From assembly GCA_027451445.1 (NCBI GenBank), contig DAIDJG010000096.1, forward strand, positions 1-44,134: a stretch of DNA of 44,134 nucleotides. Direction: 5' to 3'. The notes under the pieces were generated by a model, which saw only the letters and a program-made list of their open reading frames with translations, searched no databases and was not told the origin of the DNA. Position numbers and translations under genes: made by a program. The stretch's first letter is position 1. Each line of letters begins with the position of its first letter. Shown here one piece after another: positions 36,598 to 44,134 of this stretch. This stretch comes from Singulisphaera sp. (lineage in GTDB: Bacteria > Planctomycetota > Planctomycetia > Isosphaerales > Isosphaeraceae).

Positions 36598-38952
36598 TCA
36601 GGGCGCCTTCGGAGTGGCGGCTGTCGCCACGGCGCCGCGGGCAGCGTCGGCGAGTTTCTTGTCGGCCGCGAGCGCTTCGGCTTCGGCTTTCAATTCGTTC
36701 ACGCGGGCCGTCGCTGCATCGATGGCGGGCTTGTTCGCGGCCAGCGCCTGATCGGCCGCGGCTTTGGCCGCGTTCGCCTGATTCAACTCGGCCGTACGCG
36801 CTGCGAGTGCGGTGTTAGACGCCTGAAGGAGGTTGCGGATATCCGTGAGCGCCTTCGCCGCTCCGTTCTTGGCGTTGGTAGCGTTCTGGACGTCGGTTTG
36901 ACGTGCCTGGAGCGAAACGGTAGCAGCCTGAACCTGGGCCGTGGCGACGACGACGGTTTGAGCCGCGGCCGCCCGTTCCGCGGTGGGTTGTTGAAGGGCC
37001 TTTTGCGCGGCGGCGTGCCGGCCGTTCGCCGCGTTGAGTGCGGCGACGAGCTCGTTCTGACGCTGCGTTTGCTTGGTCGCTTCGGCCATCGCGGCGTTCT
37101 TGGCGTTCGCGTCCTTGGCGTTGTTCACCGCGGCCTGGGCCGTGGCGACGACCTGGTCCTGCGCGTTCTTGTCGGCCTGGGCCTTGGTGACTTCCGCCTG
37201 GACCTTGGCCAACGCGTCCGCGGCCGTTTTTTCTGCCGCGGCCTTGGCGGCGAGAGCCTGGTCAGCCGCGGCCTTCTCGGCGTTCGTCTTCTGGGCGATC
37301 GCCTGGACAGCCGCGAAAATCTCAGCGGCAATCTTCTCGTTGGCGGTTGTGTTGGTGAGCCCCTGCTCCGCCGCGGTGGCCTGGGCCGACTGCTGGGCCA
37401 CGGTTTGCTGGGCCGTGGTCAGGGCCTGTTGGGCTTTGGCGACGACAGCGGCCTTCTCGGCCGGTGCGTTCTGGATCGGCAGCAGTTGCTGGAGGGTTGC
37501 CTCAGCCTGCGCGAGTGCAGCCTTGTTTTGTTCCAGCCGGGTCGCGATGGGGCCGGGATTCGCGGCGAGGTTGGCGACCCGTTTACCTTCCTTCAATTCC
37601 CAGGCGCGGAGCTCGCCCGTCCAGTCGGCACCGATGACGCGGGTCTCGTCCTGAGTGAAAATCGCTTCGAGCGCCAGGTCGCCGAAGGCTTCGAAGTCGC
37701 GCTGTTTGTTGCCATTCTGATCCCAGAGCCGAACCACGCGGTCGCGGCCGGCGGTGACGATCCGGCCGTCCTTCGCGAACCGGACGGACGCGACACCCCC
37801 TCCGTGAGCACCCCACGTCTTGATCTGGCTGCCGTTCTGCATCTCCCAGAGCCGTACGCTGCCATCTTCGCTGGCCGTGGCCACCACGTTGGAGTCGAGA
37901 CGCCAACTGATGTCAGTGATGGCCGCCGTGTGCCCGCGGAGGTCATAGAACTCACGACCCGTCTGGGCTTCCCAGACCAGCAATCCGTTGTTGCGGTCGC
38001 CCGAGGCGAGCAGCACACCGTCCGGGCTGAACTCGATCGCGGTGACCCACTCGGTGTGCTTCTTCGACTCGTAAACCAGTTGGCCGTCGGCCGTGTTGTA
38101 GACCCGGAGAATCTTGCTCGGACCGCCCAGCGCCACGAGGCCATGATCCGGGCTGATGTCCGCAGCGAGGACGGAGTCGTACTCCTTGCCGATCTCGAAG
38201 ACTCGTTTTCCAGTCTTCACATCCCACACCACCGCAAGACCTGACTGTCCCCCACGCCCGCCGCCGGCGAGCAGCAGGTCGCCGTTCCGACTGAACTTGA
38301 GGACGTGGATCGTCCCTTCAGCGAACGGCAGCACGCCGACGAGGTGATTGTCCGTCGACCGATAGAGCAAGACCTGTTTGTGCCCTCCCACGGCGACGAG
38401 AGGAGCCCAGGGACTGCTTGCGAGTGCGACCACTGCCGTGGGCTTGGCACTCACCACGCTCGGCTCAGGAACCAGGCCCTGAGGCATCGCAGGTGGACCG
38501 GCGGGCTTGCCCATCGCCGACGGATCGAGCTTGAACTCGAACTTCGGCTTCGCCTTCACCATCGCCACGCTACCCGATGTCTCGAGCGCACCCCCTTCGA
38601 TCCATTGCCGGATCAGGGCGATCTCCGCGTCCGGGATCTTGGGCGAGTTCGGCGGCATTTTCGGCTCATCTTTGTGCGAGATTAGCTCAAAGAGACGGCT
38701 GCCGTCCGGGTCGCCGGGCTCAACGACCTTTCCCGAGCTCCCCCCCTGCATCGCGCCGCCGAAGCTTTCGAGGGTCAGTCCCCCCTTCTGCTTGTCGCCG
38801 TTGTGACACGAGTTGCAACGGTTCTTGAAGATACCCGAAACCTGGTCCTGGTAGGTGACCTTCGGCTTGGCCGCGTCGGCTGCCTCGGACAGTACGCCCG
38901 CAGCACACACCAAGAGCCCCGAAACGATCGCGCCGGTGACTTTCGCTCGCAT
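36598..38952 (-). CDS. exported cytochrome-c / WD40 protein with a long Ala-rich coiled-coil C-terminus
   Basis: A 784-residue protein. The signal peptide is ~1-27. A planctomycete cytochrome-c-type domain has haem motif CNSCH (46-50) and MPPNSPKIPDAEI with a plausible distal Met98. A linker is followed by WD40 repeats at ~170-470 (e.g. LASGDRNNGLLVWEAQTG, ATASEDGSVRLWEMQNG, TAGRDRVVRLWDQNG). Residues ~475-784 are almost all Ala/Lys/Glu/Gln (AEKAAADQALAAKAAAEKTAADALAKVQAEV), a long coiled coil. Cytochrome-WD40 fusions are frequent in planctomycetes; the ~310-residue coiled coil is unusual. Electron transfer with the upstream haem-motif protein is inference. GAGG before the ATG supports the start. 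It is the last gene of a three-gene set, followed by a strong terminator. Confidence 0.88.
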   Translation of the reverse strand: MRAKVTGAIVSGLLVCAAGVLSEAADAAKPKVTYQDQVSGIFKNRCNSCHNGDKQKGGLTLESFGGAMQGGSSGKVVEPGDPDGSRLFELISHKDEPKMPPNSPKIPDAEIALIRQWIEGGALETSGSVAMVKAKPKFEFKLDPSAMGKPAGPPAMPQGLVPEPSVVSAKPTAVVALASSPWAPLVAVGGHKQVLLYRSTDNHLVGVLPFAEGTIHVLKFSRNGDLLLAGGGRGGQSGLAVVWDVKTGKRVFEIGKEYDSVLAADISPDHGLVALGGPSKILRVYNTADGQLVYESKKHTEWVTAIEFSPDGVLLASGDRNNGLLVWEAQTGREFYDLRGHTAAITDISWRLDSNVVATASEDGSVRLWEMQNGSQIKTWGAHGGGVASVRFAKDGRIVTAGRDRVVRLWDQNGNKQRDFEAFGDLALEAIFTQDETRVIGADWTGELRAWELKEGKRVANLAANPGPIATRLEQNKAALAQAEATLQQLLPIQNAPAEKAAVVAKAQQALTTAQQTVAQQSAQATAAEQGLTNTTANEKIAAEIFAAVQAIAQKTNAEKAAADQALAAKAAAEKTAADALAKVQAEVTKAQADKNAQDQVVATAQAAVNNAKDANAKNAAMAEATKQTQRQNELVAALNAANGRHAAAQKALQQPTAERAAAAQTVVVATAQVQAATVSLQARQTDVQNATNAKNGAAKALTDIRNLLQASNTALAARTAELNQANAAKAAADQALAANKPAIDAATARVNELKAEAEALAADKKLADAARGAVATAATPKAP

Positions 38953-38973
38953 ATTCTCAGACCTCGGAGGGAC

Positions 38974-39102
38974 GCGGGCTCAGGGCAAGAGCCCGCGCGG
39001 GTGGGGTTGGGGAGGGATGGCGGATACAAGATGCGAGATGCAAAATGACACATTCAAGATAGCAGATGTCGATCCGATATGCCATTTGCCATCGCGCATC
39101 TT
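38974..39102 (-). promoter_or_regulatory. two hairpins between the DUF1549/DUF1553 and cytochrome/WD40 genes
   Basis: In the 157-base gap between the two coding regions lies a perfect 8-bp hairpin (38974-38981 with 38989-38996, GCGGGCTC/GAGCCCGC). A longer imperfect hairpin joins 39028-39047 with 39083-39102 (AAGATGCG-type arms). They could be intergenic stability or processing structures, or a dispersed repeat. No U-tract follows, so a terminator is unlikely. Confidence 0.45.
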
Positions 39103-39109
39103 GCATTTC

Positions 39110-41560
39110 TCAGTGATTGAACAAGAACTCACGGCTATTCAGCAGGGCCCAGAAGATGTCTTCGTACGCCTTCTGTTGGTTCGCTCCTTCACCCAGGGTG
39201 GGTAGAAGCTTATCGAGCTCTTCCTTGCTCGGCTTTCGGCCCAGGCAGCGGATGTAAAGCTCGAGGATGCGCTCCTCGGGGAACTTCTTGTTGGCGAGGA
39301 GCTGGGGAATAATCCCGCCTTGAATGATCTTGTTATTGACGGTGTCGCCGTTGAGCAGGTGGAGCGCCTGTGACAGGGTTGGCTCCATCTTGACCTCACA
39401 CGAGCAGACGGTTTCGCGCGTCGCGCGGCCGAAGGTGGTGAGGAAGTACGTCGTGCTGCCGCCGTCCGCAATCTGGACCGCCCGAGCACCGAGTGGGAGT
39501 CCCTGGAACTTGTCCTTGGTGTTGGTCACCATGCTGATCGTGTCGAGCAGGTTCTCGGCCTTGATCCGGCGCAGGTTGGCGTGGGCGAAGTTGCGCTCAT
39601 CGGTCATGTTGCTTTCGTTGCGCTGGCTCGACCGCTGGTAGGTGCGCGAATTGCAGATTTCGCGAACGAGGACCTTGAGGTCATACTTCGAGTCGGTGAA
39701 GTGCTTGCCGAGCGCTTCGAGGAGCTCGGGATTCGAGGCCGGGTTGCTGACGCGGAAGTCATCGACCGGCTCGACGATGCCCACACCGAAGAAGTGCTGC
39801 CAGACGCGGTTGGCGAACGACGTTGCGAACCAGGGGTTCTGCGGTGACGCGAGCCACTGCGCCAACACCACGCGCCGGTCCTTGCCAGCGGTGTCGGGCG
39901 TGTCGCCGCCGAGGTACTTGGGCTTCATCACGGCGCCGCCGACGGGGTGGGTGACCTCGCCGCCGCCGGAGTTGAAGATGATCGTCTCGCGGTAGTCTTC
40001 ACCCTGCTTGCGGCCGATCTGGGCGAAGAACGCGGCGAAGCCGTAGTAGTCGTTCTGGGTCCAGCGGTCGAACGGGTGGTTGTGGCACTGGGCACACTGG
40101 ATTCGCATGCCCATGAACACCTGGGCAACGTTCTCGCTCAGGAGCAGGGTTTGGTTGGTCGTCTGGTAGAAGGTGGTCGCCGGGTTCTTGAACATCCCGC
40201 CGCTGGCGCCGAGGAGCTCCTGGACCATCTGGTCCATCGGCATGTTCTTGGAGACCTTCTCCACGAGCCAGTTGTAGTAGAGGAACATCGCCTTCTGGCT
40301 GATGTTCCGGCCGGGATCGGAGCGCACCTGGAGCAGCTCGGCCCACTTGTTGACCCAGATCTCGGAGAACTCCTTGCGACCCAGCAGCTCGTCGATCAGC
40401 TTGCTCCGCTTGGCGGGGTCGGTCGAGGCCATGAAGTTCGTGTATTCCTCGACGGTGGGCGGCAATCCGACGATGTCAAAGAACACCCTGCGCACGAAGA
40501 CTTCATCGGAGCAAACTTCCGACGGAGCCATGCGAAGCTTCTTGAGCTTGTCGGCCACCAAGGTGTCGACGTAGTTCACCTCGGGTTCCGCCGGGTACGC
40601 GAACTGGAGGCCCTTGGGCAGAACGAGCATTTGCGACCCGACCGTATACGTCTCGAACCGGGCGAGCACAAACGCTTCGCCGCGGTCGCCCGCGGTGACG
40701 AGCCCGTCGGGGTTGATCGCGGCGGAGGTTTCATTGTTGGTGAGGAAGACGCACAGGCTGGTCACGTCGCGGTCGGTACCGTCGGAGTACTTCGCACGGA
40801 CGGTCATCTGCTGGGTCGCGCCCTTGCCGTCGAGCACGGCCTTCTTGGGGTAGAGGTCGACCGAGACGACCTTGGGCAGCTTGGTCAAGTCGTCGTTGGG
40901 GACGCCCGCTTCGATCCACTTGACGAGCGTCTGGCACATTTCGCTCGTGGGCTCGAACCGCTTTCCGCCACTGTGCTGGACGGTGCCGAGGGCTTTCTCG
41001 ACAACGGTGCTGTCTGCGGGAATGGCCAGGTTGATGCGCCGGCCGCTCATTTCACGCGTGAGGCGGAAGTGGTCGCCTTCGGGATCAAACCCGAAGAGCG
41101 AGAGCCGGAAGCCGTCCTTGCCGCGGGCGGCACCGTGGCAGCTCCCGGTGTTGCAGCCCGACTTCATGAAGATGGGCATCACGTCCAGCCGGAAACTGAT
41201 CGGCCGGGGAGCGGTGGCCTGCGCGACCGTCAGCGGCAACGTGACGGACTGACCGCCGAAGGCGACGGTCATCGTCGTGGCACCATCGGCCACGGGAAAG
41301 AGCGTGGCACCGTCGCGACGGGCGAGCGCGGGGTTGGCCAGGGTATAGGTTGCCTCCTTGGTGACATCGCGCGTGATGCCGTCGGCGTAAATGGCCTGCA
41401 CGACGACCGACTGGCGATCCTGGGCAGTTGTGAGCTGAACGTCGGCGGGGAAGACCTCGACCTTCGCCAAAGGTCCTTGCTGGGCCCTGGCCAGGCTGGG
41501 GATAAGGGCGAGCAAGAGCCACGCGCTGGCCGTCACTGGGCGGAATCTCGTCTTGCGCAT
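39110..41560 (-). CDS. exported DUF1549/DUF1553 protein with Ig-like domains and haem-type motifs
   Basis: An 816-residue protein of the planctomycete-specific DUF1549-DUF1553 class. After a signal peptide (~1-27), Ig-like domain 1 (~33-113) is followed by SGCNTGSCHGAARGKDG (C136-H142, a CX4CH-type motif normal for this family). Ig-like domain 2 (~231-315) and DUF1549 (~332-510), with CAQCHNHPFDRW (C489-H493), come next. DUF1553 covers ~560-800 (WQHFFGVGIVEPVDDFRVSNPASNPELLEALGKHF and the LNGDTVNNKI region). Family members are abundant, but no function is established to my knowledge. ATG 41560 is preferred, with GAGG five bases upstream; a longer frame from 41605 adds 15 codons without a signal sequence. 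It sits between the PPC-domain protein and the cytochrome/WD40 gene. Confidence 0.9.
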   Translation of the reverse strand: MRKTRFRPVTASAWLLLALIPSLARAQQGPLAKVEVFPADVQLTTAQDRQSVVVQAIYADGITRDVTKEATYTLANPALARRDGATLFPVADGATTMTVAFGGQSVTLPLTVAQATAPRPISFRLDVMPIFMKSGCNTGSCHGAARGKDGFRLSLFGFDPEGDHFRLTREMSGRRINLAIPADSTVVEKALGTVQHSGGKRFEPTSEMCQTLVKWIEAGVPNDDLTKLPKVVSVDLYPKKAVLDGKGATQQMTVRAKYSDGTDRDVTSLCVFLTNNETSAAINPDGLVTAGDRGEAFVLARFETYTVGSQMLVLPKGLQFAYPAEPEVNYVDTLVADKLKKLRMAPSEVCSDEVFVRRVFFDIVGLPPTVEEYTNFMASTDPAKRSKLIDELLGRKEFSEIWVNKWAELLQVRSDPGRNISQKAMFLYYNWLVEKVSKNMPMDQMVQELLGASGGMFKNPATTFYQTTNQTLLLSENVAQVFMGMRIQCAQCHNHPFDRWTQNDYYGFAAFFAQIGRKQGEDYRETIIFNSGGGEVTHPVGGAVMKPKYLGGDTPDTAGKDRRVVLAQWLASPQNPWFATSFANRVWQHFFGVGIVEPVDDFRVSNPASNPELLEALGKHFTDSKYDLKVLVREICNSRTYQRSSQRNESNMTDERNFAHANLRRIKAENLLDTISMVTNTKDKFQGLPLGARAVQIADGGSTTYFLTTFGRATRETVCSCEVKMEPTLSQALHLLNGDTVNNKIIQGGIIPQLLANKKFPEERILELYIRCLGRKPSKEELDKLLPTLGEGANQQKAYEDIFWALLNSREFLFNH

Positions 41561-41708
41561 CGCGACCTCAAAAGCCGGGGTCGAGGTATTTGGGTACAAG
41601 AACACGTTGAACTCCTCACCACGGAACGTCGTCGGGCGTCAGGCCCGTATGTCTTAATTGCGTCAAATCACAACGGTCTGCGGCGTTGTCTTATCGCTTC
41701 TGCGGTCT

Positions 41709-44134
41709 CTACTTGCCTCCGGCAGCCTTCGCTCGCTCCGCGTTTTCGAGCCGCAGCTTTTCAAGCCGGCTGAGCGGTTTGGGCGGTGCCGCGGCAGGCG
41801 CGGCGGCCACGGGCATGGGCATCGGCATGGGAGGCGGAGCCGGCGCGGCGTTGGGCTTCGGCGGCAACGGCACGTCGATCCGCAACTGACCGGTTCCCAG
41901 GTTATGAACGATCGGCTCGCCGTTCTGAGTTACCACGACCTGGCAGAACAGACTCGCATGGTTGCCAGCGGGCGAGATCTTGTCCGTCTTGATGTGGAAC
42001 ACCACGTCTGGCGTGTCCTTCGTGATCTTCAGTACGTCGGTCGTGACCTTGTTAGGAAGGCCGATTAACGTGACGGTCGCCTCGCCGGGGAAGTCGGTCG
42101 CCTTGTTCACCTTGACCGCCATGTCGACTTCCTTCCCCTGCTCGACGCTTGCGGCCTGAAAGCCCAGTGTAAGGAACTTCTCGGCGATGACCAAAGGCGC
42201 GAGCTGCGACGACACCATCACGGGGCCTTTGGGACCATTCGAGGAGCCGTTGACGACGATCTTCCAGGTCTTGAGTTCGGCTCCATCCGCCGCGTTCATC
42301 GGGATGACCGCTTCGTTCTGTTTCTCCGGAATCGAGATGCCACCTGCCGATCCCACACCGGGCGGATTCCAGGGAAGCGAGATCGCGATCGGTGCGGTGA
42401 ATCCCTCCTTGCGCTTGGCGACCACCTTCAGGTTCATCGAGCCGTTCCGCACCAGGGGAACCTTGGGTTCGACGATTTCGATCGAGAACGGGGCTTCCTC
42501 GGTGACCGCCACGGCAAGCGAATCGACCGATCGCGTCCAGAACGGGATGTTGTTTTGTCCGAGAACAAGCTCGATCGACTGGCTGAAGCTGCAAGGGACG
42601 TTCACCTTGGGATCAGTGTGTTTGCCCGTGAGAAGCGCCAGACCTGCGGCCAGCGGGGCGTCGGGCTTGGCGGAGAGCAAAACCGGGTAGGTCCCGAGGT
42701 TTGCCGCCATGGTGTCGGCTTCGAAGGTCACTCCGGCTGGGAGGCGATCCGCGGCAATGGCCAGGTCGCCCCCGAAGTCCGCGCGGGCGGCGTTGATGAG
42801 GATCGCCTGCCGGTTTCCTCGGGGGACCGCCGCGGCGATCGCTCCTGTCCCTCGGGCCATCGACTCCGGCGAAACACTCAGAGCAAGCTTCGCTTCGACC
42901 GGGCTGATCTCGATGCGGTATGCGTAGTCGGGCCCGCCTTTGCGGAGGTGGTCGTGGATCCAGAGAACGTAGTCGGTCTCTTCGGGGACGCCGAACCGAA
43001 TGTAACTGTCCGGACCGGGGCTGTCATCGTTCCCGGCGATGTACTGGGCACCTTTCTTCGCCAGGTGGAGCACCGAATCAAGCGGCGAGCGCAGGGTCCT
43101 GGCATAAACACGGATGTCGTAGGTCACGCCGGGCTTCGCGTGGAAGACGTAATAGTCTTCGTCGCCGGGCTTGCCGATGATCCCGTTCAGTGCCATCGGG
43201 GGCGTGAATGGCGTCGCGTGAGCCTGGTCGTCGTTCGGCTCGGCCTCGATCACATTGCCAAACGGCGAAAGCCGGAACGCATTCGGATAGGGAGCGATCC
43301 CTTTCTCATCCTGGGCAACGACCCCGAAATCAGGAGTCGGCGCGGGCGGGAGCGTGACCTTGGTTGTCTTCTCGCCGGCGACGTCGCCGATCCATTTCAC
43401 GTCGACTGCCTCGCCAACCTTGCCACCCACGGGGATGGTGGCTGTCGGTCTCGGGAAGTTGCCAACGTGTAGGCGGTAGAGACAGGCTCCGTTCCCCAGG
43501 TAGGCACTCTCACGCACCTGGATGACGTACTTGCCATCCTCAGGAGCGATGACGGAGGCTTGACCGTCCTGCCAAACGAGTGCGGCGTCGTCGCTGGAAG
43601 CGAGCTCGAACCGCTTGGCGTCCATGATCGCGACATAAGGATCGAAGAGCGTCACGCCGAGCCGAATTCCCTCGACTTCGGCCGAGATCCGGTCTCCTTT
43701 CTTCGCGTCGACCACGTAGAAGTCGACGTCCTCATTATCCGCGATCCCATTGACCGTCACATTCATGGGGATCGGCTGAGGAACCGCGAAGTCGTTGTTC
43801 GGCTCGACCTCGTTCACGTCCTTGAGCGCACCCACGCTGAAGGTCCGCACCTCGCTAATGCCCGAGGCGGTGCGGAGCCGCAGATCGTACAGGCCGAGCC
43901 GGCAATCAGGGGCGATCTTGAGCGTCACCTTGACCAGGTTGTCGTTGACGACCTGGAGCTTCGAGGTCGTGATCCCCGGTTGGTAATAGATCACCTCCTG
44001 CGCATCGGCGAGCCGTGCCCCGGTGAGGTTCACCTCGACCTCAGTTCCTCGCTGACCTCCCAGCGGACGGACCCCGCCGAGGTTGGGGGAAGACGCGAGA
44101 ACCGGGGTCGCGACGAGCAGCAGGAGGACGGGGA
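41709..44134 (-). CDS. exported protein with two PPC-type domains (start just outside window)
   Basis: Open to the window end. An internal GTG at 44033 is not the start, because the frame continues through VLLLLVATPVLASSPNLGG, clearly a signal peptide; the initiator lies a few codons beyond 44134. The protein has pre-peptidase C-terminal (PPC) domains, one at VEPNNDFAVPQPIPMNVTVNGIADNEDVDFYVVDAKKGD and one at EAEPNDDQAHATPFTPPMALNGIIGKPGDEDYYVFHA (both with EPNDD/EDVDFY marks). Beta-rich domains follow and a Pro/Ala/Met-rich end (NAAPAPPPMPMPMPVAAAPAA). No catalytic motif is visible. It is the first gene of the three-gene set; 148 bases separate it from the DUF1549/DUF1553 gene. Confidence 0.85.
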   Translation of the reverse strand, partial: PVLLLLVATPVLASSPNLGGVRPLGGQRGTEVEVNLTGARLADAQEVIYYQPGITTSKLQVVNDNLVKVTLKIAPDCRLGLYDLRLRTASGISEVRTFSVGALKDVNEVEPNNDFAVPQPIPMNVTVNGIADNEDVDFYVVDAKKGDRISAEVEGIRLGVTLFDPYVAIMDAKRFELASSDDAALVWQDGQASVIAPEDGKYVIQVRESAYLGNGACLYRLHVGNFPRPTATIPVGGKVGEAVDVKWIGDVAGEKTTKVTLPPAPTPDFGVVAQDEKGIAPYPNAFRLSPFGNVIEAEPNDDQAHATPFTPPMALNGIIGKPGDEDYYVFHAKPGVTYDIRVYARTLRSPLDSVLHLAKKGAQYIAGNDDSPGPDSYIRFGVPEETDYVLWIHDHLRKGGPDYAYRIEISPVEAKLALSVSPESMARGTGAIAAAVPRGNRQAILINAARADFGGDLAIAADRLPAGVTFEADTMAANLGTYPVLLSAKPDAPLAAGLALLTGKHTDPKVNVPCSFSQSIELVLGQNNIPFWTRSVDSLAVAVTEEAPFSIEIVEPKVPLVRNGSMNLKVVAKRKEGFTAPIAISLPWNPPGVGSAGGISIPEKQNEAVIPMNAADGAELKTWKIVVNGSSNGPKGPVMVSSQLAPLVIAEKFLTLGFQAASVEQGKEVDMAVKVNKATDFPGEATVTLIGLPNKVTTDVLKITKDTPDVVFHIKTDKISPAGNHASLFCQVVVTQNGEPIVHNLGTGQLRIDVPLPPKPNAAPAPPPMPMPMPVAAAPAAAPPKPLSRLEKLRLENAERAKAAGGK

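Follow-up and report, generated by a model that had tools for sequence, protein, structure and literature searches.

Proteins that combine the PSCyt2 (DUF1549; Pfam ID PF07583) and PSD1 (DUF1553; PF07587) domains are encoded in many paralogous copies per planctomycete genome, carry a CXXCH heme motif within the DUF1549 domain, and have DUF1501 proteins as neighbors. Descriptions of the PSCyt and PSD domains, and of the uncharacterized proteins that often neighbor them, are given in PMC5615132, which also reports periplasmic or cytoplasmic predictions for the PSCyt-type proteins. A redox role has been suggested for one PSCyt2/PSD1 protein, RB10051 of Rhodopirellula (PMC2754498), while WD40 genes have been found near DUF1501 genes in planctomycetes (PMC5587647) and operons that combine DUF1800 with DUF1501 have been reported in PMC5122149. 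In addition, a highly conserved DUF1501 module of signal peptide-containing proteins, found preferentially in the compartmentalized species of the Planctomycetes-Verrucomicrobia-Chlamydiae (PVC) group, is attributed to Kamneva 2012 in PMC4960237 and PMC4452313; the likeness drawn here to that module relies on the descriptions in these citing papers. Given these earlier descriptions of the PSCyt and PSD domains, the DUF1501 module, and the DUF1800-DUF1501 operons, the kind of module considered here is already known. The current analysis deals with one such locus, located at the right end of a contig of Singulisphaera sp. (GenBank assembly GCA_027451445.1, 10.9 Mb), contig DAIDJG010000096.1 or C96, the entire 44,134 nucleotides of which are referred to below as the window. 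It adds the definition of the ortholog, its module-wise evolution, the relation between the CX4CH and PSCyt1 domains, and a link to DUF1800, none of which was met in the open-license literature searched, where Kamneva 2012 is represented by the papers that cite it. Within the same literature, no function in print was found for these proteins.

The unit consists of four genes in the order DUF1501 > PPC > PSCyt2/PSD1 > PSCyt1-WD40, and the window carries the last three of them on its minus strand. These encode the PPC-domain protein P0003 (positions 41709 to 44132; 807 aa present, with the 5' end open at the contig end), whose PPC domain (PF04151) covers aa 135 to 207 (43512 to 43730); the PSCyt2/PSD1 protein P0002 (39110 to 41605; 831 aa), which starts with GTG and has an alternative ATG at 41560; and the PSCyt1-WD40 protein P0001 (36598 to 38952; 784 aa), which ends in an alanine-rich, coiled-coil-like region. 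By visual inspection, the N termini of the window proteins resemble Sec signal peptides. An earlier note on this DNA, made from the sequence alone, had named these genes, their strand, and the CX4CH and CAQCH heme motifs of P0002, all of which is borne out by the open reading frames (ORFs), the Pfam matches, and the alignments. Its description of a three-gene set leaves out a fourth conserved gene, that for DUF1501, which is found on another contig, C384; nor is the PPC gene complete in the window. The start of C384 is identical to the last 141 bases of the window (43994 to 44134), and that contig supplies the start of P0003 (with its first codons read by visual inspection) and, upstream of the PPC gene and on the same strand, the genes for DUF1501, Uma2 (L001:975-1589), and DUF4058 (L001:243-959) proteins, the latter two being located between DUF1501 and PPC. 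A 141-base overlap is what an assembler of that word length leaves, and relatives show the same gene order, so the join between C96 and C384 is likely, albeit not proven. The four genes are thus found in order and on one strand, although in the Singulisphaera genome itself this involves the join to C384 and the Uma2 and DUF4058 genes in between. Locus L151 likewise has a Uma2 gene between DUF1501 and PPC, and similar-looking frames were noticed by eye in L152, L158, and L164.

Conservation of this gene order was assessed with hidden Markov models (HMMs) built from proteins of the Singulisphaera genome, and loci cut by contig ends were excluded from the denominators. In a sample of 30 genomes (this one and 29 relatives) that had not been chosen by P0002, a search with the PPC protein gave matches in 28 genomes; among these, 24 relatives have hits that cover most of its length at 43 to 88% identity, and one (G004) has a hit at 35%. 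Around the 25 respective loci, wherever the contig reaches far enough, the DUF1501 gene is found upstream in 24 of 24 cases, the DUF1549 gene downstream in 23 of 23, and the PSCyt1-WD40 gene next to it in 22 of 22. In these relatives, all the genes are on the same strand, separated by gaps of up to 820 bases, which can hold a Uma2-like frame. Locus L155 (genome G005) holds two DUF1549 genes, of which the PPC-adjacent one belongs to the module; the second, paralogous one is followed by a DUF1501 gene (L155:15012-17660), ∼2.2 kb from the orthologous module. Second PPC copies with 64 to 65% identity are present in G001 and G018 (L129 and L130), with no module partners within their short flanks.

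A scan of titled genomes with P0002, from which the best 80 of 585 loci were taken, gave a similar picture. Among the 47 loci that reach 50% identity to P0002, PPC is encoded upstream in 36 of 41, DUF1501 upstream in 36 of 40, and PSCyt1-WD40 downstream in 33 of 43, compared to 18 of 28, 13 of 24, and 8 of 29, respectively, for the other 33 loci, which are below 50% identity; locus L031 was scored as lacking PPC only through an over-extended DUF frame, and its PPC gene exists. The gene-neighbor survey proposed in the earlier note therefore finds co-occurrence of these genes across genomes, the opposite of the outcome that the note would have taken as a refutation. Their recurrence is indeed strong, but the arrangement, which that note took for a planctomycete one, extends to Verrucomicrobiota, with 19 members in the orthologous clade described below and many of these with the partner genes, and to a contig from Hydrogenedentota (L066) that has the four genes in order. 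The DUF1549 ortholog is also present in two metagenome-assembled genomes (MAGs) under the title Akkermansia muciniphila (L034 and L053), in the latter with PPC, DUF1501, and PSCyt1-WD40 genes adjoining. According to the statement in PMC4960237, A. muciniphila is without the DUF1501 module, and the titles of these MAGs may be wrong.

In a FastTree phylogeny of 124 proteins (midpoint rooted, computed with long-branch warnings and without L016), the window copy falls into a clade of 70 rows with support of 96, together with the syntenic copies of the relatives, titled planctomycetes, and the 19 Verrucomicrobiota, which form one group at a support of only 75. The Hydrogenedentota protein branches just outside this clade. 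The window copy is its only member from the Singulisphaera genome, the other 19 copies being placed elsewhere in the tree. This genome contains 84 DUF1549 and 122 DUF1501 matches, fragments included, and 20 stretches, most of them with paralogs, were fetched from it. Of 21 DUF1549 genes of the CX4CH type in this genome, 13 have PPC as a partner, 15 have DUF1501 (16 if the one on C384 is counted), and 8 have PSCyt1-WD40, a gene being counted as a partner if it is fused or no more than 4.5 kb away; in L014, a single PSCyt1-WD40 gene serves as partner to both DUF1549 genes. Distances between the DUF1549 paralogs correlate with those between their PPC partners (r = 0.82, n = 12) and their DUF1501 partners (r = 0.72, n = 8), and none of 5,000 permutations reached as high a value. 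The first comparison used 12 of the 13 DUF-PPC pairs, leaving out L013, in which the PPC-like part is fused to the cytochrome; the second did not include the DUF1501 proteins found in L007, L014 (first cluster), L015, and L017. Both comparisons used whole frames, some with spurious N-terminal extensions. As all these paralogs reside in one genome, a common species tree does not account for the correlation: the paralogous modules diverge as units. Two paralogs contain fusions, one (L016) of PSCyt1-WD40 to PSCyt2/PSD1 in a protein of 1,705 aa and the other (L013) of PSCyt1-WD40 to a stretch that matches the PPC-protein profile. A PPC and PSCyt1-WD40 pair was also found without an intervening DUF1549 gene (L020:5878-9734).

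From the N terminus, P0002 comprises an immunoglobulin-like (Ig-like) domain, the CX4CH domain, a second Ig-like domain, DUF1549 (40016 to 40570), and DUF1553 (39203 to 39877); the two Ig-like domains are of the Big_2 type. The DUF1549 and DUF1553 domains score 175.5 and 159.7 bits, well above their curated cutoffs of 29.8 and 28.5. This subtype differs from the planctomycete PSCyt2/PSD1 proteins mentioned above by the PSCyt1-like CX4CH domain inserted between two Ig-like domains and by the addition of the PPC and PSCyt1-WD40 partners; many other PSCyt2 proteins of the same genome (e.g., on contigs C118 and C535) have PSCyt1 upstream of DUF1549 instead. The CX4CH motif is CNTGSCH (aa 151 to 157; 41135 to 41155) and the CXXCH motif inside DUF1549 is CAQCH (aa 504 to 508; 40082 to 40096). 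The Cys and His residues of both motifs are retained in 20 of 20 proteins in an alignment from the same genome (A1) and in 64 of 64 in alignment A3, which consists of P0002 and 63 of 73 listed frames; alignments A4 and A5 used below are likewise chosen subsets. Also invariant in A3 is His211 (40973 to 40975), six residues before Phe217. Although the Pfam scan did not report PSCyt1 (PF07635) for P0002 over the cutoff, a profile comparison with hhalign aligned the CX4CH stretch to PSCyt1 at 95.9 to 96.5% over 90 columns. Judged by these alignments, the CX4CH domain is a PSCyt1 domain with two extra residues between the cysteines. Phe217 aligns with the Met position of PSCyt1, at which only 3 of the 64 A3 proteins have Met, and His211 aligns with the majority His of PSCyt1, which makes it a candidate for the second axial ligand. 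The CX4CH heme can thus be predicted to have bis-His ligation and would therefore have a lower potential.

The partner cytochrome appears to be of a different type. PSCyt1 of P0001 is recognized in Pfam (61.5 bits, cutoff of 22), as is WD40, and its CXXCH motif CNSCH (aa 46 to 50; 38803 to 38817) is followed by Met99-Pro100; Cys46, Cys49, His50, Met99, and Pro100 are invariant in all 34 proteins of alignment A4. The sole NCBIfam match of the C-terminal region, to an SMC-type family, is weak and below the cutoff. Verrucomicrobiota orthologs of P0002 (one of the 19 cut short) add to the heme content, as 14 of the 19 have an extra N-terminal PSCyt1-like heme domain with a third motif, which is PF07635 in both orthologs that were scanned (L042 and L048). 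The Singulisphaera genome encodes two PF01578 cytochrome c assembly matches.

The PDB matches shown for the whole P0002 model all fall on its Ig-like part, the closest solved folds being those of Ig domains in LigA and in S-layer proteins, along with phage and other proteins. In quinohemoprotein amine dehydrogenase, Ig-like domains, hemes, and a propeller are present within one complex. Two structures of this enzyme, 1jju and 1jmx, match the Ig-like part of P0002 (Z score of 9.5, root mean square deviation [RMSD] of 2.3, and 92 aligned residues for the former; Z score of 9.0, RMSD of 1.8, and 88 residues for the latter); the alignment is limited to that part, with no sign of a shared cofactor or reaction.

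The fourth protein, DUF1501, contains a twin-arginine pair in 40 of 40 sequences (alignment A5). A structural model of this protein from an orthologous locus (L021; pLDDT of 83.7) finds sulfatases, alkaline phosphatases, and LtaS-type enzymes at the top of the 50 PDB matches shown (best E value of 1.7e-6, probability of 1.00), and the DUF1501 profile aligned at 91.9% with sulfatases from the same genome in hhalign. On this modeling, DUF1501 is predicted to have the sulfatase/alkaline phosphatase fold. The sulfatase alignment covered columns 175 to 430 of the DUF1501 profile, leaving the N-terminal part unaligned, and A5 lists no invariant motif of the C-x-P-S-R type. Sequence searches of the PDB returned no DUF1501 relative and no credible one for DUF1800.

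The DUF1800 family (PF08811) is of interest here because of its remote resemblance to DUF1553. DUF1553 aligned with the second half of DUF1800 at 84 to 90% over 55 to 56 columns in hhalign, and weak PF08811 matches were seen on some PSCyt2/PSD1 frames (e.g., on contig C509); the Pfam scan did not report PF08811 for P0002 itself, and the profile similarity is partial. A DUF1501-like gene adjoins the DUF1800 gene in 18 of the 18 loci fetched (L131 to L150) from the 26 strong matches listed, which suggests that the DUF1800 and DUF1549/DUF1553 families use a similar partner. The DUF1501 neighbor and the remote, partial likeness to DUF1553 are common to the DUF1800-DUF1501 pair and the module described here; the PSCyt2/PSD1 proteins have heme motifs, whereas none of the conserved positions reported for the DUF1800 alignment is a Cys. 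It is tempting to view the module as a heme c-containing elaboration of the DUF1800-DUF1501 pair in the PVC lineage. A core exported enzyme (DUF1553/DUF1800-like) and a sulfatase-fold partner would then be shared, the PVC bacteria would have added a relay through the PSCyt1 (His/Met), CX4CH (bis-His), and DUF1549 hemes, and the whole could represent an undescribed type of exported oxidoreductase, with the ortholog studied here serving a core envelope function. We consider this scenario tentative and, on balance, doubtful.

Transcription of the window genes may end at an intrinsic terminator-like hairpin of 18 pairs 3' of the PSCyt1-WD40 gene (36567 to 36525 on the minus strand), which is followed by TTTTGTTCG. 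The earlier note described it as a perfect terminator. The hairpin is strong, with a minimum free energy (MFE) of -38.2 kcal/mol compared to -16.4 ± 2.6 for shuffled sequences (z = -8.5), but its outermost pair is G-U and its tail, TTTTGTTCG, is short. The 12 terminator-like sites of the region are not above chance (9.4 ± 3.2 in the shuffles), and this hairpin alone stands out among them. The genes are separated by gaps of 103 and 157 bp, the second of which (38953 to 39109, between the DUF1549 and cytochrome/WD40 genes) has an MFE of -61.7 (z = -5.0). It contains, after the DUF1549 stop codon, a long-arm imperfect hairpin (39027 to 39103), possibly an RNA processing or attenuation site, and then a GC-rich hairpin. 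As a candidate dispersed repeat, the long hairpin was rejected: an exact 14-mer from it occurs once in the genome, with diverged copies not sought. Given the two gaps, the second with its strong hairpin, a single transcript for the window genes is no more than plausible.

The four proteins might constitute an exported heme c oxidoreductase or electron-relay complex, a reading in which our confidence is evenly balanced. This proposal builds on the synteny in relatives and titled genomes, the orthologous clade with a single copy from this genome, the correlated divergence of the paralogs, the fusions, the extra heme domain of most Verrucomicrobiota orthologs, the PSCyt1 relation of the CX4CH domain, the DUF1501 structure matches, and the two cytochrome c assembly matches. 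The redox role considered in the earlier note is indirectly backed by the invariance of the predicted heme motifs. In the proposed mechanism, three of the proteins would be exported by the Sec pathway and DUF1501 by Tat, and all four would assemble into one extracytoplasmic complex. The PSCyt2/PSD1 protein, with its CX4CH heme (probably with two His ligands) and its DUF1549 heme, would be the redox core, and the PSCyt1 domain (His/Met type) of the WD40 protein its electron partner. The WD40 propeller might provide a docking platform and the Ig and PPC domains the scaffolding, whereas DUF1501 would act on, or bind, the same substrate as the redox core. Such a complex could oxidize or reduce some extracytoplasmic substrate.

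Several observations weigh against this proposal. Two of the 29 relatives (G007 and G011) have no PPC match, and two more (G023 and G025) have paralogs only, one in the order DUF1549 > DUF1501 > PPC (L175) and the other as PPC alone (L176). Beyond the class, the PPC ortholog is patchy, being present in 34 of the 199 genomes sampled from the phylum, the Singulisphaera genome included, at E values of ≤1e-60. Four Verrucomicrobiota loci (L051, L057, L059, and L060) have no partners nearby, and in four Verrucomicrobiales the PSCyt1-WD40 gene is found upstream and is transcribed divergently. In the Singulisphaera genome itself, DUF1501 and PPC are interrupted by the Uma2 and DUF4058 genes, and a strong hairpin separates the last two genes of the module. 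The TM-scores of the DUF1501 structure matches are low (0.27 to 0.45). Finally, both the heme ligation and the ligand change are read from sequence, and three A3 proteins retain Met at the Phe217 position.

Polymer degradation, the other role offered in the earlier note, received no support from the genes around the module. Flanking genes vary between genomes. Of the ORFs listed around the orthologous loci, 20 from 12 loci were scanned; since they were picked by length, not all of them need be real genes. At E values of ≤0.001, they yielded no family of glycoside hydrolases, polysaccharide lyases, or carbohydrate-binding proteins. Seven of these ORFs had no family match, and another (L165) is an alpha/beta-hydrolase, for which PF12740 ("PETase") was just over the cutoff and among the weaker matches. 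A related proposal, made for the PSCyt proteins of freshwater Verrucomicrobia, is that such a module serves polysaccharide degradation by recognizing sugars and oxidizing or desulfating them. It draws on what is reported in PMC5615132, namely, sulfatase neighbors, the presence of carbohydrate-binding modules in part of the PSCyt proteins, and an inverse relation to glycoside hydrolase density, and it would agree with the predicted sulfatase/alkaline phosphatase fold of DUF1501. The first Ig-like domain of P0002 also resembles the N-terminal beta domain of hyaluronate lyase (PF21461), weakly in P0002 itself (17.9 bits, cutoff of 27) and above the cutoff in the ortholog from L048 (32.8), and hyaluronate lyase 1f1s aligns to this region (Z score of 8.3, RMSD of 2.3, 68 residues). 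PF21461 is, however, a noncatalytic domain; no carbohydrate-active or carbohydrate-binding family turned up in the flanking ORFs just described or in the Pfam listing of the window proteins (which gave 25 of 41 families for P0001); and the copy in question does not vary among relatives but is conserved. A role in polysaccharide degradation therefore appears unlikely.

The same low probability can be assigned to the suggestion that the four proteins serve the planctomycete envelope as a scaffold, either structural or for assembly, with the heme motifs stabilizing folds or regulating rather than catalyzing. Ig-like, PPC, and WD40 domains do dominate these proteins, P0002 is nearest in fold to the LigA Ig domains and S-layer proteins, and the DUF1501 module has been tied to compartmentalized PVC cells (by Kamneva 2012, according to PMC4960237 and PMC4452313). 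However, invariance of the six motif residues in 64 of 64 proteins and of the partner cytochrome Met in 34 of 34 speaks against a merely structural part for the hemes, and the extra heme domain of most Verrucomicrobiota orthologs fits electron transfer better. An extracellular electron transfer conduit of the porin-cytochrome type is very improbable: several exported c-type heme motifs are indeed encoded in one operon-like set, but these are three in total, the listed Pfam matches of the four proteins include neither a porin nor a multiheme family, and no fifth gene recurs in the 20 flanking ORFs scanned. Least probable of all, the view that these are independent genes, neighbors by chance, could appeal to the 103- and 157-bp gaps, the hairpin between the second and third genes, and the interposed Uma2 and DUF4058 genes, but the synteny counts refute it as a general explanation, with the order intact in every relative that has room for it, and it is further opposed by the module-wise divergence of the paralogs and by the fusions.

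Returning to the putative exported heme c complex, conservation of this particular copy among relatives suggests a general envelope function, while the paralogs would have diversified for other substrates. As one defined, conserved locus with a partner set, heme-ligand predictions, and a link to DUF1800, it may serve as a testable stand-in for the scores of paralogs.

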